Source of the DNA: Rhizobium sp. ACO-34A
Lineage (GTDB): Bacteria > Pseudomonadota > Alphaproteobacteria > Rhizobiales > Rhizobiaceae
Assembly: GCA_002600635.1 (NCBI GenBank)
Contig: CP021371.1
Coordinates: forward strand, 3,289,001 to 3,353,000
Direction of reading: 5' to 3'
Length of the DNA: 64,000 nucleotides
Shown piece by piece: positions 811 to 10,603 of the stretch. Under the pieces are notes generated by a model that worked only from the letters and a program-made list of their open reading frames with translations, did no database searches and had not been told where the DNA came from. Each line of letters begins with the position of its first letter. Position 1 is the first letter of the stretch. Both the position numbers and the translations under genes were made by a program.

Positions 811-2112
811 TCAGCTGCCCTTGCCGCCGCACTTGCCGGTGGCAACGTTGAAGTTGCCGCACGACATCGGCTTGCGCCAATCGGAGATCAGGTCTTTCGA
901 GTCCGGCAGATAGTCGGACCATTCGTCGCCAACCACTTGCGGGGTCTGCTGAACGATGTCGAACTGGCCGTCGGCCTGGATTTCGCCGATCAGCACCGGC
1001 TTGGTGATGTGATGGTTCGGCATGACGGTGGAGTAGCCGCCCGAGAGGTTCGGAACGGAAACGCCGATGATCGAGTCGAGAACGGCGTCGGTGTCGGTCG
1101 TGCCGGCGGCCTCGACGGCCTTGACCCAGGCGTTGAAGCCGATATAGGCGGCTTCCATCGGGTCGTTGGTCACGCGCTTGTCGTTCTTGGTGAAGGCATG
1201 CCATTCCTTGATGAACTCGGCATTGACCTCGGAATCGACGGACTGGAAGTAGTTCCAGGCGGCGAGATGGCCGACCAGCGGAGCGGTGTCGAGACCGGCA
1301 AGCTCTTCTTCGCCGACCGAGAAGGCGACGACCGGAATGTCTTCGGCCTTGATGCCCTGGTTGGCGAGTTCCTTGTAGAAGGGAACGTTGGCGTCGCCGT
1401 TGATGGTGGAAACGACGGCGGTCTTCTTGCCGGCCGAGCCGAACTTCTTGATATCGGATACGATCGTCTGCCAGTCGGAATGACCGAACGGCGTGTAGTT
1501 GATCATGATGTCCTCTTCCTTGACGCCCTTCGACATCAGGTAGGCCTTCAGGATCTTGTTGGTGGTCTGCGGATAGACATAGTCCGTGCCGGCCAGAACC
1601 CAGCGCTCGACGCCTTCGGTGTTGGCGAGGTAATCGACGGCCGGGATAGCCTGCTGGTTCGGAGCGGCACCGGTGTAGAAGATGTTGCGGGAGGATTCTT
1701 CACCTTCGTACTGGACGGGATAGAAGAGGATCGAGTTCAGCTCTTCGAAGACCGGCAGGACGGACTTGCGGGAAGAGGACGTCCAGCAACCGAAGACGGC
1801 CGCAACCTTGTCCTGAGAGATCAGCTGGCGGGCCTTTTCAGCGAAAAGCGGCCAGTCGGAGGCCGGGTCGACGACCACGGCTTCGAGCTTCTTGCCCAGA
1901 ACGCCACCCTTCTTGTTCTGCTCTTCGACGAGCATCAGCATGGCGTCCTTCAGCGTCGTCTCGGAAATCGCCATCGTGCCGGACAGCGAATGCAGAACGC
2001 CGATCTTGATCGTGTCGTCGGCGGCAAGCGCGCCATGGAAAGCCGTCGTGGACAGCATGGCGCCGAGCAGCGCGCCAGTGAGTTTTGCCCTGAATTTTGC
2101 CTTGAGTTTCAT
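811..2112 (-). CDS. urtA: Urea ABC transporter substrate-binding protein UrtA
   Basis: 433 residues, normal for UrtA. A basic, hydrophobic signal peptide ends near residue 30 (GALA-ADDTIKIG). The mature part is a type-I periplasmic binding fold of the LivK class with UrtA-type blocks: LHSLSGTMAISE, FGCWTSSSRKSVLPVFEE, LFYPVQYEGEESSRNIFYTG, and the C-terminal MSCGNFNVATGKCGGKG with two cysteines. It binds urea in the periplasm and delivers it to UrtBCDE. ATG at 2112 follows AGGAGAGGGG. urtB lies downstream with a palindromic spacer. Two inverted repeats sit upstream (2146-2163, 2206-2221). Urea transporters of this type are generally nitrogen-regulated, but I found no convincing sigma-54 site. 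Confidence 0.95.
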   Translation of the reverse strand: MKLKAKFRAKLTGALLGAMLSTTAFHGALAADDTIKIGVLHSLSGTMAISETTLKDAMLMLVEEQNKKGGVLGKKLEAVVVDPASDWPLFAEKARQLISQDKVAAVFGCWTSSSRKSVLPVFEELNSILFYPVQYEGEESSRNIFYTGAAPNQQAIPAVDYLANTEGVERWVLAGTDYVYPQTTNKILKAYLMSKGVKEEDIMINYTPFGHSDWQTIVSDIKKFGSAGKKTAVVSTINGDANVPFYKELANQGIKAEDIPVVAFSVGEEELAGLDTAPLVGHLAAWNYFQSVDSEVNAEFIKEWHAFTKNDKRVTNDPMEAAYIGFNAWVKAVEAAGTTDTDAVLDSIIGVSVPNLSGGYSTVMPNHHITKPVLIGEIQADGQFDIVQQTPQVVGDEWSDYLPDSKDLISDWRKPMSCGNFNVATGKCGGKGS

Positions 2113-2163: not shown

Positions 2164-2205
2164 GTTGCTGAGAGGGACTATCCGACGCTGCAGCGCAAAA
2201 CCGTA

Positions 2206-2221
2206 TACGTCGTTTGACGTA
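2206..2221. promoter_or_regulatory. Inverted repeat TACGTC-N4-GACGTA upstream of urtA
   Basis: TACGTC, spacer GTTT, GACGTA: a perfect 6-bp inverted repeat about 95-110 bp upstream of the urtA start, where an activator or repressor site would be placed. No named regulator is recognised. Confidence 0.35.
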
Positions 2222-2333: not shown

Positions 2334-2969
2334 TCAGGCCAGCCAGTTCGTAACGATCGGCCAGACCTCGATCGCACCGTGGTAGATCATATTGACCGTC
2401 ACATAGACGATGACGCCGAGACCGACATAGGCGATCCAGCGGTGGCGGTGCAGCAGGCGTGCAACGAGGCTTGCGGCAAGACCCATCAGGCCGATCGACA
2501 GAACGAGGCCGATGATGAGGACGCTGGTGTGCTCGGCGGCAGCGCCGGCAACGGCCAGAACGTTGTCGAGCGACATGGAAACGTCGGCGACGACGATCTG
2601 CATCGCGGCCTGCATGAAGGTCTTCTGCTTGACGTTATATTCGGTATCATCGGTCTCACCCTGCTTGTGCGGCTCATGGGCCGCTTCACGCAGTTCGCTC
2701 CACATCTTCCAGCAGACCCAGGCGAGCAGCAGGCCGCCGATCAATTGCAGGCCGACGACGCCGAGGAGATAGGCGGTGATCGTCGCAAACGTGATGCGCA
2801 GAATGGTTGCGGCACCGATGCCGACGAGAATGGCCTTCCGGCGCTGGTGATCGGGAAGGCCGGCAGCAGCAAGGCCGATGACGATGGCGTTGTCGCCGGC
2901 AAGAACGAGATCGACAGCAATAACCTGAAGAAGTGCCGCAAAGCCTGCGGCAGTGAAAATTTCCATCAT
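2334..2969 (-). CDS. TerC/YjbE-family integral membrane protein
   Basis: 211 residues with six or seven hydrophobic helices and the duplicated TerC-type acidic motifs: VDLVLAGDNAIVIGLA near residue 20 and ADVSMSLDNVLAVAG near residue 128. A hydrophilic loop (EPHKQGETDDTEYNVKQKT) separates the halves. Such proteins sit in the inner membrane; members of the family are linked to tellurite resistance or manganese export, but this YjbE-type subgroup has no firm function. Start is the double Met at 2969/2966. It is a monocistronic minus-strand gene flanked by hairpins. I looked upstream for a yybP-ykoY manganese riboswitch, which often precedes such genes, and did not find a convincing one. Confidence 0.85.
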   Translation of the reverse strand: MMEIFTAAGFAALLQVIAVDLVLAGDNAIVIGLAAAGLPDHQRRKAILVGIGAATILRITFATITAYLLGVVGLQLIGGLLLAWVCWKMWSELREAAHEPHKQGETDDTEYNVKQKTFMQAAMQIVVADVSMSLDNVLAVAGAAAEHTSVLIIGLVLSIGLMGLAASLVARLLHRHRWIAYVGLGVIVYVTVNMIYHGAIEVWPIVTNWLA

Positions 2970-3169
2970 GATTTTGGAACCGTGAATTTCAGAAAGTGTT
3001 TGTGCGTCCCGCTATAGCCCCCAAGCGCGGCAAGGCAAGGCGAATGACCGGAAAATATGGGATTTGTCGCACGATTTTTTGCGTTTTCCAAAAACCGCGG
3101 CACTCAGGCGATCCTCATCCATCGACAGGATGTCGCCATGGGCGCGCTCGTCATGAAGCAAATGGCAAA

Positions 3170-3191
3170 AAGGGGGCTTGAATGCCCCCTT
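3170..3191 (-). terminator. Rho-independent terminator of the LpxO/OlsC-like gene
   Basis: Stem AAGGGGGC / GCCCCCTT with a 6-nt loop. On the minus strand it is followed by a run of T (TTTTTGCC), 30 bp past the stop codon of the hydroxylase gene. Confidence 0.85.
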
Positions 3192-3220
3192 CGCAGTTGA
3201 AAGCCTCGCTTCCGCCGTCC

Positions 3221-4063
3221 TCAGTTCGGGCGGTTCCGCAACGCCTCGGCTTCGGCGTAGAACTTCTTTTCCCATTCCTTGTGGTTGTCGAGACCCTCGC
3301 GGATGAAGGGCGTGAAGATCGCCATGTTCATCAGCAGCCAGTTGACCAGCCGTGCCGGGAACTTGAGCGGCTTGACGAAATCGACAAACAGGACGACGCG
3401 CGTCTTGTCGGTGTGGTTCCACGCCTCATGCTCATAGGCATCGTCGAAAATCAGGACCTTGCCCTCTTCCCAGTGGCAAATCTGGTCCTTGACCCGGATG
3501 GCGAGGTTGTCGCCGGTATTCTCGGGAACGATCATGCCGAGATGCAGGCGAAGCACGCCGTTATAGGGACCGCGATGCGGCGGCAGGTGCTTGCCCGGCT
3601 CGAAGATCGAGAACATCACCGTCGTCAGGCCCGGGATCTTCTGCATGGCCTTCCACGTTTCCGGGCAGGCCTTGATGTTCTGTTCCGACTTCACACCGAA
3701 GCCGAGCAAAAAGAAGGTCTTCCAACCATTGTCGGTCGAGATCGTCTTCACGTCGGTGGAAATGTCCTGGAACGTCGGCAACTCGTTCTTGCGAACCAGA
3801 ATACGGTCGAGTTCGGTGCGGATCGCCGGCGCAGCCTTCTCGATTTCCTTCGCCCACGGAAAGGTCGCGTTGTCATAAACCGGAGGATTGCCGAGCTTGG
3901 CGTATTTGAGGTTCAGGCCTTCCGCCCATGCGACGATGCCCATGAAGGCACGCGTAATGGCGCTCGGCCGATCCATCGGCGCGATGCCATCGGTTGCAAA
4001 GGTCTGCTTCGGCTCGGGAGTATTGGAATCGGCGGAAAAGGGTGCAGCCACATCAGGCTCCAT
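3221..4063 (-). CDS. Aspartyl/asparaginyl beta-hydroxylase-family lipid hydroxylase (LpxO/OlsC-like)
   Basis: 280 residues. The 2-oxoglutarate/Fe(II) dioxygenase core is visible: HLPPHRGPYNGVLRLHLGM near residues 160-180 supplies the first His, and FDDAYEHEAWNHTD near 217-230 supplies the second. Downstream RVVLFVDFVKP matches the oxoglutarate-binding Arg region. Close relatives are LpxO, which hydroxylates the acyl chain of lipid A, and rhizobial OlsC, which hydroxylates ornithine lipids; both act on membrane lipids and alter acid and stress tolerance. The sequence alone does not separate these two, so no symbol is given. The first ATG at 4063 is used; a Met at residue 30 is an alternative. 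It is transcribed alone and ends at a clear terminator. Confidence 0.8.
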   Translation of the reverse strand: MEPDVAAPFSADSNTPEPKQTFATDGIAPMDRPSAITRAFMGIVAWAEGLNLKYAKLGNPPVYDNATFPWAKEIEKAAPAIRTELDRILVRKNELPTFQDISTDVKTISTDNGWKTFFLLGFGVKSEQNIKACPETWKAMQKIPGLTTVMFSIFEPGKHLPPHRGPYNGVLRLHLGMIVPENTGDNLAIRVKDQICHWEEGKVLIFDDAYEHEAWNHTDKTRVVLFVDFVKPLKFPARLVNWLLMNMAIFTPFIREGLDNHKEWEKKFYAEAEALRNRPN

Positions 4064-4361
4064 GACGTTCAGGATTGAAACTGGAAAACATGCTTATCGG
4101 GTTTACAGACGGCAACCGGCGCAACGCAAGCCCTCCTCCCCACGCTTGCCTCGGCCAGAACCGTAATCTCGACCATCTTTGTCGGAATAGCGGATAAATT
4201 GTGACACTTTCCGTCATGAAACCGTTCCGCAGTCCTGTTTCCACGCCTTCCACGCATTGTTGCAGGCCGCGACCTCCCTCCTCCGCCCCTTGCAATTCCA
4301 GTCATTCCCGGAAAGACTGCCTAATCCGCAATCACTTTCAATCGGGCACCAGTTTTTAGGC

Positions 4362-7300
4362 ATGGCCGCACGCCAACGCATCATCCCCGTCCGCCGCGAA
4401 TATAATCGCTGGGTGGCCAATCAGACGCTGGAAGACTATGCGCTGCGCTTCACGGCCAAGAGTGCCCGCAAGTTTTCCTCCAGCCGGATTTCGCAGACAG
4501 CCATCGGCGCCATCTCCTTTCTCGCGCTGGAAGCGATCGGCGGCACCATCACCCTGTCCTACGGCACCACCAATGCGGTCTTCGCCATTCTTGCAGCCGC
4601 CATCGCCATGCTGGTCGTGGGGCTGCCCATCAGCCGCTATGCCATCCGCCACGGAGTCGATATCGATCTCCTGACCCGCGGTGCGGGCTTCGGCTATATC
4701 GGCTCCACCATCACCTCGCTGATCTATGCCAGCTTCACCTTCATGCTGTTCGCGATCGAGGCATCGATCATGACCGGCGCGCTGGAGCTTGCCTTCGGCA
4801 TACCGCTGTGGATCGGCTACATCGTCTCCGCCATGGTGGTGATACCGCTCGTCACCTACGGCGTGCAGCTCATCTCCCGTTTCCAGCTGCTGACCCAGCC
4901 ATTCTGGATCGTCCTCAACATCCTGCCATTTGTCTTCATCGCCTTCGCGGATTGGGAGAAGTTCGACCTCTGGCGCGCCTTCGCCGGCATAGGTCATTCC
5001 AATGCCCAGACCGGCGGCATCGCCCCGTTCGACCTCGTGGAATTTGGCGCCGCCTCCGCCGTCATCCTGGCCCTGATGCCGCAGATCGGCGAACAGGTGG
5101 ACTTCCTGCGCTTCCTGCCGCCCGAAGGCGGGCGAAAGCTCCGGCATCGCTTCGCCGTTTTCCTTGCCGGCTCCGGCTGGGTGGTGCTCGGCGTTCCGAA
5201 ACTGCTCGCCGGCTCCTTTCTCGCGGTGCTGACCCTTTCGACCGGCGTTCCGGCGCAGGAAGCCGCCGACCCGGCGCACATGTATCTCGCTGCCTTCGGC
5301 TACATGATCCCCAACGACACGGCGGCCATGCTGCTGATGGCCTGCTTCGTCGTGATCTCGCAGCTCAAGATCAATGTGATGAACGCCTATGCCGGCTCGC
5401 TGGCATGGTCGAACTTCTTCTCGCGGCTGACCCACAGCCATCCGGGCCGCGTCGTCTGGCTGGTCTTCAACGTGGCGATCGCACTGCTTCTGATGGAGCT
5501 CGGCATCTACCGGCTGCTGGAGGAGACGCTCGGCATCTTTTCCATCATCGCGATGGCGTGGCTCTGCACGATTTCCGCCGATCTCTTCGTCAACAAGCCC
5601 CTCGGTCTCGCGCCCCCCGGCATCGAGTTCAAGCGCGCCCATCTCTACGACATCAATCCCGTCGGCTGCGGTACGCTGCTTCTTTCCGCCGGCGTGGCGC
5701 TCGCAGCCCATTTCGGCCTGTTCGGCCCGCTGATGGCCTCGCTTGCCACCTATATCACGCTCCTCGCCTTCCTGATCTCGCCGCTGATCGCCTGGGGCAC
5801 CCGTGGCAAGTTCTATCTCGCCCGCAAGCCGCGCCAGAGCTGGAAGACGCTGGGTTCGATCACCTGCTCGATCTGCGAACACCCCTTCGAGCCGGAGGAC
5901 ATGGCATGGTGTCCCGCCTATGCGGCGCCGATCTGCTCGCTCTGCTGTTCACTCGACAGCCGCTGCCACGACATGTGCAAGCCGCAGGCAAAGCTCAACG
6001 CCCAGACGGCAGCCGTCGCCGCGCGCCTGCTGCCACAGGACATGATTGCGTGGCTATCCACCCGCCTCGGCAGATATGCCATCACCTCCGTCATCGCCAT
6101 TTCCGTGATCGGCGCGATCCTCGCGCTCATCGCCCATCAGGTCGCCTCCCGCTCGCCCGACACCGCCGAAGTCGTCAATCGCACGGTTCTGATCGTCTTC
6201 TTCGTGTTCTCCGTGATCTCCGGCATAGCAAGCTGGTTCTACGTGCTTGCCCATGACAGCCGCGTCGTCGCCGAGGAGGAATCCTCCCGCCAGAACACCT
6301 TGCTGCTGAAGGAAATCGCCGCCCACCGCAAAACGGATGCCGCACTGCAGACCGCCAAGGAAACGGCCGAAGCCGCCAACCGGGCCAAGAGCCGTTATGT
6401 CGTCGGCCTTTCCCACGAACTGCGCACGCCGCTCAACGCCGTCATGGGCTATGCCCAGATCCTCGAGCACGACGAGACGATACCAGCCCCGCGGCAATCC
6501 GCGATCAAGGTCATCAGGCGCTCCGCCGACCACCTCTCCGGCCTGATCGACGGACTGCTGGACATCTCCAAGATCGAGGCCGGCCGCCTCCAGGTATTTT
6601 CCAACGAACTGAACATTCAGGATTTTCTCGACCAGCTCACCGACATGTTCGCCCCACAGGCCGCGGCAAAGGACCTGATCTTCGAGCACGAGCGTTCCCG
6701 CGCCCTGCCGCAATATGTTCGAACCGACGAGAAGCGGCTTCGCCAGATCCTCGTCAACCTGCTCTCCAACGCGATCAAGTTCACCGAGGAAGGAACCGTC
6801 CGCTTCGAGGTGGGCTATCGCAGCCAGGTCGCGACCTTCACCATCTCCGATACCGGCCGCGGCATTTCCGAACGCGATCTCAACCGCATCTACGAGCCCT
6901 TCCAGCGCGGCGAGGCGGAAATCGTCAAGCCGCAGCCCGGTCTCGGACTGGGACTGACCATCACCAAGCTGCTCACCAACACGCTCGGCGGCGAAATCGC
7001 GGTGACGAGCGAGCCCGGCAAGGGCTCGTCCTTCAAGGTGCGGCTGATGCTTTCGGCAATCGAGCGGCCGAGCACGGCCCCGGCCCCGGAAAGAAAGATC
7101 GTTTCCTACACCGGCCCGCGCCGCACCATCGTCGTGGTCGACGACAACGAGGATCACCGCGACCTGATGCGCGAGGTTCTGGCTCCCCTCGACTTCGTCG
7201 TCCTGACGGCGACCAGCGGCCCCGACTGTCTGACGCTGATCGAGGGGATCAAGCCCGATCTCTTCCTCGTCGACATCTCCATGCCCGGCATGAATGGCTG

Positions 7301-7745
7301 GCAACTCGTTGAAAAACTGAGGGAAACCGGCCAGACTGCCCCAATCCTCATGCTCTCCGCCAATATCGGCGACGCCCCCGCGCCGGGCGGTGACGGCCAC
7401 AACGACGCCATCGCCAAGCCGGTCGACGTCAAGCGTCTGCGCGACAAGCTGGCGCTTTATCTTGGGCTGGACTGGATCTATGCCGACGAGATACCTCCAG
7501 TACCCGCGACACCCGTTTCGATAAAACCACGCTCGCCGGGACCGGCCCATCTGGAAGAGTTGCTGCGACTCGGGGAAATCGGCTATGTGCGCGGCATAGA
7601 GGCGAAGCTGGCGGATCTCGCCAGACTGGATGGCAATGCGGCCTTCGTCGAGACATCGAAAAGCTTCGTGCAGGGTTTCGACATGACGGGCTACATCGCC
7701 TTCCTGAAGACGTTCCAGCCGGGCAAGGAGGAAACCCGTGGTTGA
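4362..7745 (+). CDS. NCS1-permease-like hybrid sensor histidine kinase/response regulator
   Basis: About 1127 residues from the ATG at 4362 (an earlier in-frame Met at 4257 is unlikely). Order: residues ~30-490, roughly 12 membrane helices resembling NCS1 purine/cytosine/allantoin permeases; residues 502-539, a Cys-rich module (CSICEHPF.., ICSLCCSLDSRCHDMC); two more helices (~572-632); a coiled linker; a HisKA dimerisation domain with FSHELRTP-type motif LSHELRTPLNAVMGYAQ, phospho-His at 685; an ATPase domain with NLLSNAIKF, DTGRGIS and GLGLGLTI; a receiver with VVVDDNED and the phospho-Asp in LVDISMPGMNG at about 971. A ~60-residue C-terminal tail follows. The protein probably couples binding or transport of a solute to phosphorylation of the next gene product, whose start overlaps its stop. 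The ligand is unknown. The 298 bp upstream (4064-4361) contain no gene. Confidence 0.88.
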   Translation: MAARQRIIPVRREYNRWVANQTLEDYALRFTAKSARKFSSSRISQTAIGAISFLALEAIGGTITLSYGTTNAVFAILAAAIAMLVVGLPISRYAIRHGVDIDLLTRGAGFGYIGSTITSLIYASFTFMLFAIEASIMTGALELAFGIPLWIGYIVSAMVVIPLVTYGVQLISRFQLLTQPFWIVLNILPFVFIAFADWEKFDLWRAFAGIGHSNAQTGGIAPFDLVEFGAASAVILALMPQIGEQVDFLRFLPPEGGRKLRHRFAVFLAGSGWVVLGVPKLLAGSFLAVLTLSTGVPAQEAADPAHMYLAAFGYMIPNDTAAMLLMACFVVISQLKINVMNAYAGSLAWSNFFSRLTHSHPGRVVWLVFNVAIALLLMELGIYRLLEETLGIFSIIAMAWLCTISADLFVNKPLGLAPPGIEFKRAHLYDINPVGCGTLLLSAGVALAAHFGLFGPLMASLATYITLLAFLISPLIAWGTRGKFYLARKPRQSWKTLGSITCSICEHPFEPEDMAWCPAYAAPICSLCCSLDSRCHDMCKPQAKLNAQTAAVAARLLPQDMIAWLSTRLGRYAITSVIAISVIGAILALIAHQVASRSPDTAEVVNRTVLIVFFVFSVISGIASWFYVLAHDSRVVAEEESSRQNTLLLKEIAAHRKTDAALQTAKETAEAANRAKSRYVVGLSHELRTPLNAVMGYAQILEHDETIPAPRQSAIKVIRRSADHLSGLIDGLLDISKIEAGRLQVFSNELNIQDFLDQLTDMFAPQAAAKDLIFEHERSRALPQYVRTDEKRLRQILVNLLSNAIKFTEEGTVRFEVGYRSQVATFTISDTGRGISERDLNRIYEPFQRGEAEIVKPQPGLGLGLTITKLLTNTLGGEIAVTSEPGKGSSFKVRLMLSAIERPSTAPAPERKIVSYTGPRRTIVVVDDNEDHRDLMREVLAPLDFVVLTATSGPDCLTLIEGIKPDLFLVDISMPGMNGWQLVEKLRETGQTAPILMLSANIGDAPAPGGDGHNDAIAKPVDVKRLRDKLALYLGLDWIYADEIPPVPATPVSIKPRSPGPAHLEELLRLGEIGYVRGIEAKLADLARLDGNAAFVETSKSFVQGFDMTGYIAFLKTFQPGKEETRG

Positions 7746-8661
7746 TGCCGCCCGGCCCCGCGACATCGTTCTGTTGGTCGACGACAGCCCGGAAGCGCTC
7801 GGCTTTCTGACGGACGCGCTGGAACAGGCGGGCTTTTCCGTACTGATCGCCACCTCCGGACAGGTCGCGCTTTCCATCGTCGCCCGCATCAGCCCCGACA
7901 TCATCCTGCTCGATGCCGTCATGCCCGGCATGGACGGCTTCGAGACCTGCCGCAGACTGAAGGAAGACGCCGCCGTCGCCCAGGTACCGGTGATTTTCAT
8001 GACCGGTCTGTCGGAGACCGAGCATATCGTCCACGCGCTGGAATCGGGCGGTGTCGACTATCTCACCAAGCCGATCAACATCGATGAACTGCGCGCCCGC
8101 ATCCGGGTGCACCTCACCAATGCCCGCTCGGCCCAGAGCGCGCGCGTGGCGCTCGACGCCGCCGGCCGGCACCTGCTTGCGGTCAAAGGCGACGGCAGCA
8201 TCCACTGGTCGACACCGCAGGCGACCCGGCTTGCCGAAACCGCCACCAGTCGCTCCGATGGTCTGGATCTCGTGGCACGCGCGATCGCGGACTGGATGTC
8301 GAAGCGCGAGGCAGCCGGCGCACAGGCCGAAAGCGGCTTCACCTTCACCCACGGCGGCGGCGCGGCCCTGCAACTCGGCTATCTCGGCGCCATCGGCTCC
8401 GATGAATACCTGTTTCGCCTGACCGTCTCAAACCGCACCAGCGACGACGAGACGCTACGCCGCCACTTCACCCTCACCCAGCGTGAATCCGAAGTGCTGC
8501 TCTGGATAGCAAAGGGAAAATCCAACCGGGATATCGGCGATATCCTTGGTCTTTCTGCCCGCACGGTGAACAAGCACCTCGAACAGATCTACGTAAAGCT
8601 CGGCGTCGAAAATCGCGCATCTGCCGCAGTCAAGGCGGCGAATGTCCTGCACGTGGATTGA
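7738..8661 (+). CDS. LuxR-type response regulator, partner of the permease-kinase
   Basis: 307 residues. An N-terminal receiver domain (VLLVDDSPEALGF; phospho-Asp 59 in ILLDAVMPGMDGF; Thr in FMTGLSE; Lys in YLTKPINIDE) is followed by a ~100-residue middle region and a C-terminal LuxR/FixJ helix-turn-helix (LTQRESEVLLWIAKGKSNRD..LSARTVNKHLEQIYVKLGV). It starts with GTG at 7738 and overlaps the kinase stop by 8 bp, so the two are translationally coupled and almost certainly a cognate pair. The middle region (residues ~125-235) is not a standard linker and may be a sensory or regulatory insert. Target genes are unknown. Confidence 0.92.
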   Translation: MVDAARPRDIVLLVDDSPEALGFLTDALEQAGFSVLIATSGQVALSIVARISPDIILLDAVMPGMDGFETCRRLKEDAAVAQVPVIFMTGLSETEHIVHALESGGVDYLTKPINIDELRARIRVHLTNARSAQSARVALDAAGRHLLAVKGDGSIHWSTPQATRLAETATSRSDGLDLVARAIADWMSKREAAGAQAESGFTFTHGGGAALQLGYLGAIGSDEYLFRLTVSNRTSDDETLRRHFTLTQRESEVLLWIAKGKSNRDIGDILGLSARTVNKHLEQIYVKLGVENRASAAVKAANVLHVD

Positions 8662-8824: not shown

Positions 8825-10471
8825 TCAAAGCGCCCGCGCCTTCTCGCGCAGAACGAACTTCTGGATCTTGCCCGTCGATGTCTTCGGCAGCGGGCCGAAC
8901 ACGACCGTCTTCGGCGCCTTGTAATGCGCCATGTTGGCGCGGCAAAAATCGATCAGTTCCTTTTCCGTCACCACCGCACCTGCCTTGAGGCCAATGAAGG
9001 CGCAAGGGGTTTCGCCCCACTTCTCGTCGGGACGGGCGACGATGGCGGCCTCCATGACGGCGGGATGCCGGTAAAGCACACCCTCGACCTCGATCGAGGA
9101 GATGTTCTCGCCGCCGGAAATGATGATGTCCTTGGAACGGTCCTTGATCTCGATATAGCCATCCGCATGGCAGACCGCGAGATCGCCGGAATGGAACCAG
9201 CCGCCGGCAAACGCCTTGTCGCTGGAGGACGGGTTTTTCAGGTAACCGCGCATGACGTTGTTACCGCGGAAGAAGATCTCTCCCATGGTTTCCCCGTCGC
9301 TCGGAACCGGCTCCAGCGTTTCCGGATCGGCGACCATCAGGCCATCCAGCACCGAGTAACGCACGCCCTGGCGGGCCTTCAGCCGCGCCTTTTCAGAGAT
9401 GTCGTGATCGTTCCACTCGTCATGCCATGCGCAGACGACGGCCGGGCCATAGGTCTCGGTCAGGCCATAGGTATGGGTGACGTCGAAGCCCAGCTCTTCC
9501 ATTGCCTCGATCACTGCCGCCGGAGGCGCAGCACCTGCCGTCATGACGGAAACCTTGTGGTCGATGCCCGCTTTCAGCTCATCCGGCGCATGGGCGAGCA
9601 GGTTGAGCACGATGGGCGCTCCGCAGAAATGCGTGACCTTTTCGGCGCGTATGAGATCGTAGATCGGCTCCACGCGCACGGACCGCAGGCAAACCGACGT
9701 GCCGGCGGCAGCGGCAATCGTCCAGGGGAAGCACCAGCCGTTGCAGTGAAACATCGGCAGTGTCCAGAGATAGACCGGATGATTGGCCATACCCCAGGTC
9801 AGGATATTGCCGACGGCGTTCAGATACGCGCCGCGATGATGATAGACGACGCCCTTCGGGTCACCCGTGGTGCCGGAGGTATAGTTGAGGCTGATCGCAT
9901 CCCACTCATCGACGGGGCGCTCCCATTTGAAATTGGGGTTGCCCTCCGCGAGGAGATCGTCATAGGTCGCCTCTCCAAGACGATGCCCGCCGGAAAAGCT
10001 CGGGTCGATGATATCGATGATCTCGATCGGCCGCCCTGCGATATGAACGGCGCGCTCGGCGACATCGGCGAACTCGGGATCGACGATCAGCAGGCGCGCC
10101 TCGCCATGGTTCAGAATGAACGCGATCGCCTCGGCATCGAGCCGCGTGTTGACGGCGTTCAAGACCGCGCCCGTCATCGGCACGGCGAAATGGCATTCGA
10201 ACATCTCGGGGATGTTGGCGGCGATCATCGCAACCGTATCTCCCCGGCCGATGCCACGATTGGCCAATCCACTGGCAAGACGGCGAACGCGGTCATAGGT
10301 CTGCAGCCAGTTGCGGCGCACATCGCCATAAACCACCGCGGTACGGCCAGGATAGACCTGGGCGGAGCGCTCGATGAAACTCAGCGGCGTCATCTGGGAA
10401 AAGTTCGCGGCGTTCTTGTCGAGCTCGCGATCGTAGATCCCCTCCCCGTGCGGAATCGTCATTCCATGCAT
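8825..10471 (-). CDS. Acyl-CoA synthetase (AMP-forming), DmdB/medium-chain type
   Basis: 548 residues from the ATG at 10471, chosen because GGGAGG lies 8 nt upstream; an earlier Met at 10516 has none. It is an ANL-superfamily enzyme: P-loop YTSGTTGDPKGVVYHHRG (~residues 175-195), GLTETYGP, WFHSGDLAV, IKDRSKDIIISGGENISS and the C-terminal catalytic Lys in PKTSTGKIQKF. It activates a carboxylic acid to acyl-AMP and then the CoA thioester in the cytoplasm. Similar proteins are annotated as 3-methylmercaptopropionyl-CoA ligases or fatty-acyl-CoA synthetases; the substrate cannot be fixed from sequence. It converges on the two-component pair, and whether it is a target is open. Confidence 0.88.
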   Translation of the reverse strand: MHGMTIPHGEGIYDRELDKNAANFSQMTPLSFIERSAQVYPGRTAVVYGDVRRNWLQTYDRVRRLASGLANRGIGRGDTVAMIAANIPEMFECHFAVPMTGAVLNAVNTRLDAEAIAFILNHGEARLLIVDPEFADVAERAVHIAGRPIEIIDIIDPSFSGGHRLGEATYDDLLAEGNPNFKWERPVDEWDAISLNYTSGTTGDPKGVVYHHRGAYLNAVGNILTWGMANHPVYLWTLPMFHCNGWCFPWTIAAAAGTSVCLRSVRVEPIYDLIRAEKVTHFCGAPIVLNLLAHAPDELKAGIDHKVSVMTAGAAPPAAVIEAMEELGFDVTHTYGLTETYGPAVVCAWHDEWNDHDISEKARLKARQGVRYSVLDGLMVADPETLEPVPSDGETMGEIFFRGNNVMRGYLKNPSSSDKAFAGGWFHSGDLAVCHADGYIEIKDRSKDIIISGGENISSIEVEGVLYRHPAVMEAAIVARPDEKWGETPCAFIGLKAGAVVTEKELIDFCRANMAHYKAPKTVVFGPLPKTSTGKIQKFVLREKARAL

Positions 10472-10603
10472 AGCGTGAGCCTCCCAACTCTCATAGACGG
10501 GAGGAGTATTACCCAATTGATCGCCGACGCAACATAATCCGTTGGGCTAAGAACCATTTCCGGTTGAAACCGGCTACGCGGCCTTGTGCGCGGCCACAAA
10601 CGC

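Follow-up and report, generated by a model that had tools for sequence, protein, structure and literature searches.

The locus lies within a stretch of 64,000 nucleotides from Rhizobium sp. ACO-34A, which was analysed as a whole and is called the window here. A gene for a hybrid sensor histidine kinase is followed on the same strand by a response regulator gene, and the two ORFs share an 8 bp overlap (Table 1). On the strand opposite the kinase, urtA is the first gene of a cluster of urtABCDE and urease genes that runs on leftwards past the window edge. At locus L139, models for UrtB-E, UreC and UreE scored above their cut-offs, and the UreD model also matched.

Table 1. Features of the locus, with positions in the window.
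Feature	Position	Strand	Basis or remark
urtA, urea ABC transporter binding protein	811..2112	-	TIGR03407, 560.4 bits (cut-off 492.75)
Palindrome TACGTCAAACGACGTAT, about 100 bp before urtA	2205..2221	-	Predicted target site of the response regulator
TerC-family gene (YjbE type), between urtA and kinase	2334..2969	-	Cluster in 5/81 loci
olsC-type hydroxylase gene, between urtA and kinase	3221..4063	-	Cluster in 9/81 loci
Hybrid sensor histidine kinase gene	4362..7745	+	1127 aa; ATG 4362 (likely start), stop 7743-7745
NCS1-related domain, about 12 TM helices, residues about 20-480	4419..5801	+	hhalign, hydropathy
Eight-cysteine segment, residues 502-539, C-x2-C-x11-C-x7-C-x2-CC-x5-C-x3-C	5865..5978	+	Alignment
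Two further predicted TM helices, residues 568-633	6063..6260	+	Hydropathy peaks
HisKA domain, residues 676-741, phospho-acceptor His685	6387..6584	+	Pfam match
HATPase_c domain, residues 788-897	6723..7052	+	Pfam match
Response_reg receiver domain, residues 923-1030, Asp971	7128..7451	+	Pfam match
Kinase C-terminal tail, residues 1031-1127	7452..7742	+	No Pfam match
Response regulator gene, 307 aa, GTG start, REC + LuxR-type HTH (GerE)	7738..8661	+	ORF and Pfam
Acyl-CoA synthetase gene, adjoining the regulator, convergent	8825-10516		

A longer kinase ORF beginning with TTG at 4257 can also be read, but the ATG is likely the start because the full-length close homologues among the matches listed were mostly about 1123-1138 aa long. 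A full-length homologue with 80-98% identity was found in 21 of the 23 genomes of the same genus that were searched, and a partial one in the other 2; therefore, the ORF is no chance frame. The protein was aligned with its counterparts from 156 homologous loci, giving 157 rows with the window. His685 was conserved in all 157 rows, and Asp971 in all 155 rows with a letter at that column, as is proper to a hybrid histidine kinase with HisKA, HATPase_c and receiver domains. In the regulator, Response_reg covered residues 11-123 and GerE residues 245-300, the receiver and HTH arrangement of the NarL/LuxR type. Of the 80 named loci and the window, 81 in all, 80 had a regulator homologue; with a 50% coverage filter, 150 of the 156 loci had one. 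The sequence-only reading had described a protein of about 1127 residues with a permease-like half, kinase core, receiver and tail, next to an overlapping LuxR-type regulator gene, and the ORFs, Pfam domains and hydropathy bore out this description.

The permease-like half had been read as an NCS1 fold serving as the input. Row-averaged hydropathy over the 157 rows, with overlapping windows grouped by eye, indicated about 12 TM helices between residues 43 and 482, the number typical of NCS1 transporters. With hhalign, the domain aligned over 375 columns with four classic NCS1 members that were picked by the Pfam model alone (probability 96.5, E 8e-10). It also aligned with L033 (probability 97.3, E 2.7e-11), a standalone relative that scored 36.8 bits against the Pfam NCS1 model (cut-off 23.5). 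The value for five standalone relatives together was higher (probability 99.9, E 6.4e-36) but partly circular, since these proteins came from searching with the domain itself; only two of the five, L033 and L160, passed the Pfam cut-off. By these comparisons, homology to PF02133-matching proteins extended over the whole domain. The NCS1 models of Pfam and NCBIfam did not match the window's domain (PF02133 not at E up to 10), and the Pfam NCS1 model did not match nine homologous domains either. Because that model gives no score, profile comparison places the domain as an outlying, NCS1-related relative and not as a PF02133 member. The NCS1 fold is LeuT-like, as in Mhp1. A profile search of the PDB with the domain returned nothing at E up to 10, and another PDB search gave only short, weak matches, the best of them (E 0.014) to engineered G-protein chains. 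The label 'purine-cytosine permease-like', which JGI attaches to some homologues, is that source's naming only.

An SLC5 input was rejected. The hhalign probability was 0.6 and 0.4 against an SLC5 protein of the same genome and 0.3 against a six-sequence SLC5 alignment, some rows of which were partial, and PF00474 had no match in the front domain. Residues 491-643 gave no STAC-named match in a profile search, the library of which may hold no STAC model. These comparisons checked whether the N-terminal half belongs to SLC5 or to a different sensory family already known, and the NCS1 reading held.

The front domain was strongly conserved over its whole length (mean column identity 69% in 16 sequences), which would also suit a true transceptor that transports urea or amides and signals, as CbrA does with histidine. 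CbrA is reported both to transport and to signal (PMC7096432, PMC13022988). However, Ks-Amt5, an Amt-type sensor kinase, has lost transport according to the relevant passages of PMC5764959; therefore, fusion of a transporter to a kinase does not imply transport. A transceptor appears rather unlikely here.

Between the front domain and the kinase core, all eight cysteines of the segment in Table 1 were present in 157 of 157 rows, and strong matches of this segment fell in frames of the same kinase family. The segment is possibly a metal site; a PDB search with it returned sirtuin matches that were weak (E 0.55 or higher) and unconvincing. The two helices that follow were assigned to residues 568-598 and 600-633 by the same hydropathy procedure. 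Neither the eight invariant cysteines nor the upstream urea transporter gene was part of the earlier description of the locus.

The neighbourhoods of the kinase gene were compared over the 156 homologous loci. Urea genes (urt/ure) assigned 93 of them, and short-chain amide genes (formamidase, amidase, FmdD-type importer) assigned 54; no locus had both, and 9 had neither. Identity thresholds were used for the assignment because 'fmdABC' matches included ones of 25-28% to liv-type genes. The named loci comprised 69 urea and 8 amide loci of 80. Among the 76 loci from sampled genomes, which include only four of the kinase loci detected in close relatives, 24 were urea loci and 46 amide loci. The counts are not independent, since near-identical loci were included. 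Four of the loci with neither context were cut by contig ends (L049, L102, L175, L191), and five had full flanks with other neighbours (L092, L206-L208 from one genus, and L211). The association of the pair with urea or amide genes extends across Pseudomonadota. All six genomes found to have two full-length hybrid copies carried one urea-type and one amide-type locus (L244 and L245 were fetched in addition for this check). The earlier suggestion that a nitrogen compound is sensed is therefore supported by the neighbourhood and narrowed to urea or short-chain amides.

The pair could control these operons while its NCS1-related domain senses ammonium, general nitrogen status or a nucleobase-like compound. 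PF02133 is described as a family of permeases for cytosine/purines, uracil, thiamine and allantoin, and urea operons are often under nitrogen control. Such a ligand is nevertheless unlikely in view of the clean split between urea and amide contexts and of the two-copy genomes with one of each, as two sensors would be needless for a general nitrogen signal. In addition, inspection by eye of the 30 most frequent clusters of neighbours revealed no recognisable purine, pyrimidine, allantoin or hydantoin gene.

Of the 147 loci assigned to a urea or amide context, 137 had a UrtA/FmdD-type binding-protein gene by the thresholds used, and in 129 of these 137 it was divergent from the kinase. This frequency would fit indirect sensing, in which the kinase monitors the state of the ABC importer or of UrtA/FmdD, and the NCS1-related domain serves as a membrane partner and does not itself bind the ligand. 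At L145, L153, L155 and L176, however, the queries picked up urease subunits but no gene for an importer within the fetched stretch; at L159 they found FmdA and again no importer gene, and at L158 FmdA accompanied only by an ABC ATPase match at 31%. Many polar residues of the domain were moreover kept in at least 97% of the 157 rows, as would be expected of a binding site. Taken with these loci, indirect sensing seems quite improbable.

Other neighbours were also considered. The TerC-family gene is probably a local insertion outside the system, given its occurrence in 5/81 loci, and the olsC-type hydroxylase gene is probably outside it as well. Since the acyl-CoA synthetase gene adjoins the regulator, this gene, or the liv operon, might be the main target, comparable to acs under CrbS/R. 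However, only 5 of 81 loci had the acyl-CoA synthetase cluster, on which ground its regulation was rejected as the main role, and 38 had the LivJ cluster. Furthermore, the palindrome before urtA had no other match in the window at up to one mismatch, or two for its longer form, and main targets of this kind are very improbable.

The palindrome has the core TACG-N8-CGTA and the consensus TACGTCA-N4-ACGTAT. Of 87 kinase-linked loci, the window among them, 79 had the core about 100 bp upstream of urtA and 77 the stricter form TACGY-N6-RCGTA; the 8 loci without the core were every tested urtA locus of two of the five urea clades. The best 26 of 30 urtA-type matches (L247-L272) served as controls, four with 34-44% identity (L273-L276) being left out, and each was checked for a kinase within flanks of about 1.5 kb. 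Their genomes were mixed: most were kinase-negative on search, some were unsearched, and G346 had a kinase elsewhere. Only 2 of the 26 had the palindrome, precisely the 2 with a kinase adjoining urtA. The site thus went with the regulator as a correlation (79/87 versus 0/24 loci without an adjacent kinase), and it was absent in the two urea clades. In a scan of 6.28 Mb, TACGY-N6-RCGTA had two sites and the reversed pattern 31. Around the kinase start (700 bp upstream to 350 bp downstream), this form occurred in 44 of 93 urea loci and in 39 of 54 amide loci, 15 of the latter thus having none, compared with 161 of 3120 pieces of 1050 bp drawn at random from these loci. Of 51 loci with an amide-type binding-protein gene, 24 had the palindrome immediately upstream of that gene. 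A pattern scan for a sigma-54 site covered 80 of the 87 pieces upstream of urtA and found none.

The history of the two contexts was followed on a tree of 66 front domains built by a quick method, for which an 85% identity filter kept 62 of the 157 rows, and some two-copy rows and rows with neither context were added. As read off this tree, in which 25 of 63 inner branches were well supported, the urea loci fell into five clades, and the context changed between urea and amide five times. No residue of the 157-row alignment distinguished all five urea clades from the amide clades; the best separator, position 327, differed in four of the five.

Gene neighbourhoods and the conserved promoter palindrome are the grounds from which we infer the ligand and the regulation of the pair. 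On these grounds, it is probably a two-component system responsive to urea or short-chain amides, in which the input is NCS1-related and the LuxR-type regulator uses the palindrome to control urt or fmd operons. The ligand of the NCS1-related domain would be urea in this bacterium or, in other bacteria, a short-chain amide, and the conformational change of the domain would pass through the cysteine segment and the two further TM helices to the kinase. Phosphate would then move from the kinase to the LuxR-type regulator, with the receiver domain perhaps an intermediate or a brake, and the regulator would bind TACGTCA-N4-ACGTAT and turn on urtABCDE or the fmd/ami operon.

Neither a characterised orthologue nor a described counterpart of the pair was found in a literature search, in agreement with the earlier statement that a system of exactly this layout was not known to have been described. 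The SLC5/STAC kinases CbrA, CrbS and RpuS likewise carry a secondary-transporter-type domain fused to a kinase, and the Sinorhizobium CrbS/R and RpuS/R systems use LuxR-type regulators, as here, according to passages of PMC9100948. In contrast, the input here is NCS1-related, STAC stands in those kinases where the eight-cysteine segment and two TM helices stand here, and the neighbours here are urea/amide genes. CrbR works through an inverted repeat, as is proposed for the regulator here, but the palindrome here is unlike the ACTU motif examples printed in the relevant part of PMC5715377. Ks-Amt5 also uses the fold of a nitrogen-nutrient transporter as a kinase input, but it combines an Amt domain with DHp and CA subdomains, and the passages of PMC5764959 concerned identify no regulator. 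Standalone NCS1 transporters share homology by profile comparison and about 12 TM helices, whereas the domain here is below Pfam detection, fused to a kinase and set among urea/amide genes. For Ectopseudomonas guguanensis G3, a hybrid kinase and a LuxR regulator are listed along with a urtABCDE operon, and the fmdA locus tag is next in number after the cluster (PMC13296017). The likeness to the present locus is one of description, the passages of that source giving genome annotation only, without an NCS1 domain, ligand or motif.

It can be proposed tentatively that the pair represents a widespread, undescribed class of Pseudomonadota receptors dedicated to urea and short-chain amides. Their kinase input would be an NCS1-related fold, linked to the kinase by an eight-cysteine metal module; the class would have switched about five times between amide and urea and would drive urt/fmd operons by way of a single shared palindrome. 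Transporter folds that serve as kinase inputs are few, being SLC5 and Amt examples in the literature excerpts examined, and the NCS1 fold would, if this is true, be added to them. The pair would then be a candidate for the detection of urea and of formamide/acetamide by many soil bacteria. The paralogues within one genome and the about five context switches on the tree would form a natural experiment; therefore, the basis of ligand choice would be testable. Urea is a main fertiliser, and urea sensing in rhizobia is therefore of practical interest.

The hybrid histidine kinase of the window and its overlapping regulator gene were compared with homologues from 156 fetched loci (L numbers), 80 from named and 76 from sampled genomes. 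Pfam models HisKA, HATPase_c and Response_reg matched the 1127-residue kinase, and Response_reg and GerE matched the 307-residue regulator. For kinase residues 1-520, neither Pfam nor NCBIfam returned a match at E ≤10. When hydropathy was averaged across the 157 aligned rows and the peaks were grouped by eye, about 12 transmembrane peaks were found up to residue 482 and two more at 568-633. Eight cysteines between these two groups (502, 505, 517, 525, 528, 529, 535 and 539) were each kept in 157 of 157 rows. A 90-residue query from this region gave matches at E ≤0.01 in 44 of 299 genomes; among the matches listed, all those with E <1e-10 lay inside open frames of at least 894 residues, typical of the kinase family, and the remaining ones were weak (E 0.002 or more).

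Positions of genes in the window and in fetched loci
Feature	Sequence	Position	Strand	Remark
terC and olsC	window	2334-4063		separate urtA from the kinase gene
Kinase gene	window	4362-7745	+	1127 aa
Regulator gene	window	7738-8661	+	307 aa; 8-bp overlap with the kinase gene
Shorter kinase and neighbours	L158	3659-9656		kinase of 885 aa
Shorter kinase and neighbours	L159	3656-9847		kinase of 894 aa
Standalone NCS1-type gene and neighbours	L160	3949-8370		protein of 497 aa; PF02133 36.4 bits
Presumed phytochrome-like gene (~850 aa)	L041-L043, L047, L048, L053, L099			in the gap between urtA and the kinase gene

A single-sequence search with the N-terminal domain matched 21 of 289 alphaproteobacterial genomes, including the window's own; in 20 of the 21, the domain lay in open frames of 1130-1243 residues with 52-100% identity. 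The remaining match, a standalone 473-residue protein at L033, showed 24% identity to the domain (E 4.8e-8) and scored above the PF02133 cut-off; its hhalign probability against 16 fusion domains was 97.3. Alignment of the fusion domains with five standalone relatives gave a probability of 99.9 (E 6.4e-36), a value that is partly circular because these relatives were retrieved with the N-terminal domain as the query. Two of the five (L033 and L160) exceeded the PF02133 cut-off, one fell below it (19.5 bits) and two had no match. Four classic PF02133 proteins picked by the Pfam model provided the independent test: 30 fusion domains aligned with them at a probability of 96.5 (E 8e-10, 375 columns), and the standalone relatives did so at 99.2. 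Judged by these profile alignments, the N-terminal domain is NCS1-related, as the sequence-only reading had proposed. An SLC5 identity was rejected, with hhalign controls giving only 0.6, 0.4 and 0.3.

The NCS1-type gene at L160 adjoined genes for a Peripla_BP_5 protein and for a protein with two CN_hydrolase domains. Its product, perhaps a urea/amide permease, was the nearest transporter relative among those found.

Kinase matches occurred in 61 of 398 Pseudomonadota genomes (52 strong, E <1e-150; nine weak or fragmentary), and a scan of named genomes gave at least 593 relatives. The best 80 of these, retained for locus comparison, included Rhizobium, Sinorhizobium, Devosia, Roseibium and Bradyrhizobium according to record titles. 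One locus labelled as an Arenimonas MAG (L041), with a kinase domain 91% identical to the window's and Rhizobium gene order, is probably a mis-binned contig.

ORF clustering across 81 loci (the 80 named and the window) placed the regulator in 80 and UrtA in 74, with UrtA always on the strand opposite the kinase. In the window's genome, urtABCDE and the urease genes likewise lay on the opposite strand; in many relatives, urtA was directly divergent from the kinase gene. In 7 of the 81 loci, the gap between urtA and the kinase contained a gene that we take to be phytochrome-like and a small partner gene. The 76 sampled loci came from a phylum search (56, all strong copies there except the window's own), a class search (16) and relatives (4). 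With identity thresholds used to assign each locus, the named loci comprised 69 urea (urt/ure), 8 amide (formamidase, amidase and importer genes) and 3 other loci, and the sampled loci comprised 24, 46 and 6; none of the 156 carried both gene sets. Of the nine loci with neither, four (L049, L102, L175, L191) were truncated by contig ends and five (L092, L206-L208, L211) had full flanks with other neighbours; the pairs of these five may respond to a different ligand or act on distant genes. Profile models confirmed representative UrtA, UrtB-E, UreA, UreB, UreC, UreD and UreE neighbours, the aliphatic amidase AmiE and the formamidase FmdA (771.7 bits against a cut-off of 500). The median gap between the kinase and the closest urea or amide gene was 224 bp, and it was below 1 kb in 103 of 147 loci. 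At L140, L152 and L179, the regulator was present although missed by the 50% coverage filter (221 residues in L152, within longer ORFs in L140 and L179).

In searches scoring limited candidates per genome, six genomes (G505, G589, G569, G710, G023, G005) had two full-length hybrid copies, and in all six one copy was at a urea locus and the other at an amide locus; the urea copy of G005 was ~4 kb from urtA. In genome G444, a hybrid copy and a shorter 885-residue copy each sat at an amide locus. A tree of 66 domains built by a quick method had good support for 25 of 63 inner branches. On this tree, changes between urea and amide context required five steps; single labels against the rest required 6 or 7, and the shuffled mean was ~22. 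The shorter kinase of L159 had no receiver by Pfam and was followed by a REC-HisKA-HATPase protein and FmdA; L158 had a similar layout, and both loci carried a presumably OmpR-like regulator on the other strand. This layout gives the sensor a third architecture, and the amide link survives the change of output, since FmdA still accompanies these kinases.

A palindrome, TACG-N8-CGTA (consensus TACGTCA-N4-ACGTAT, ~100 bp before the start codon), was common to the urtA upstream stretches and is the predicted binding site of the regulator. It was present before urtA in 79 of 87 loci, with 350-bp and 500-bp stretches alike, and the stricter TACGY-N6-RCGTA in 77. The search pattern imposed the four outer bases on each arm but left free the T following the right arm, which was found in 79 of 79; positions farther out were more variable. 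Among 26 control urtA loci, the element occurred in two, exactly those with an adjoining kinase; the other 24 had neither. Fisher's test gave 5e-18 for this association (81/89 vs 0/24) and 1e-5 for sampled genomes only (11/19 vs 0/24), both values being optimistic because the loci are related. TACGY-N6-RCGTA had two sites in the 6.28-Mb genome, the second inside an ORF, and the reversed pattern had 31. In the stretch between 700 bp upstream and 350 bp downstream of the kinase start, the element occurred in 39 of the 54 amide loci and 44 of the 93 urea loci, compared with 161 of 3120 random pieces. In 24 of 51 loci, it immediately preceded the amide-type binding-protein gene, and at some amide loci it also stood near FmdA. 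Three amide loci (L140, L152, L179) had two palindromes 22 bp apart. The eight urea loci lacking the element before urtA (L164, L165, L168, L215; L205, L210, L212, L213) were every urtA locus tested of two urea clades, so a different site or a different logic must operate in these clades.

The available excerpts of PMC9100948 pair each of the Sinorhizobium SLC5/STAC kinases CrbS and RpuS with a LuxR-type regulator, and those of PMC5715377 describe an inverted repeat required by CrbR. The pair studied here resembles these systems, and Ks-Amt5 as excerpted in PMC5764959, in its working mode, but its kinase falls outside both groups by its input domain. Titles and abstract openings, mostly outside subscription journals, yielded no published NCS1-kinase fusion and no urea- or amide-sensing system of the same layout. 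A hybrid kinase and a LuxR gene by a urtABCDE operon are mentioned in passing in an excerpt of PMC13296017, and the main text of the formamide-use review PMC10781810 contains neither 'two-component' nor 'sensor'.

The explanation that best fits the kinase-regulator pair is a urea/amide-responsive system activating urt or fmd operons. The analysis establishes its domain anatomy, its gene neighbourhood and the joint occurrence of palindrome and kinase. We infer its ligand, phosphotransfer and DNA binding: the pair would respond to urea or amides, and the urt or fmd operons would be switched on. We call it a transporter-type sensor kinase with a new input family, a new linker and a new regulon.
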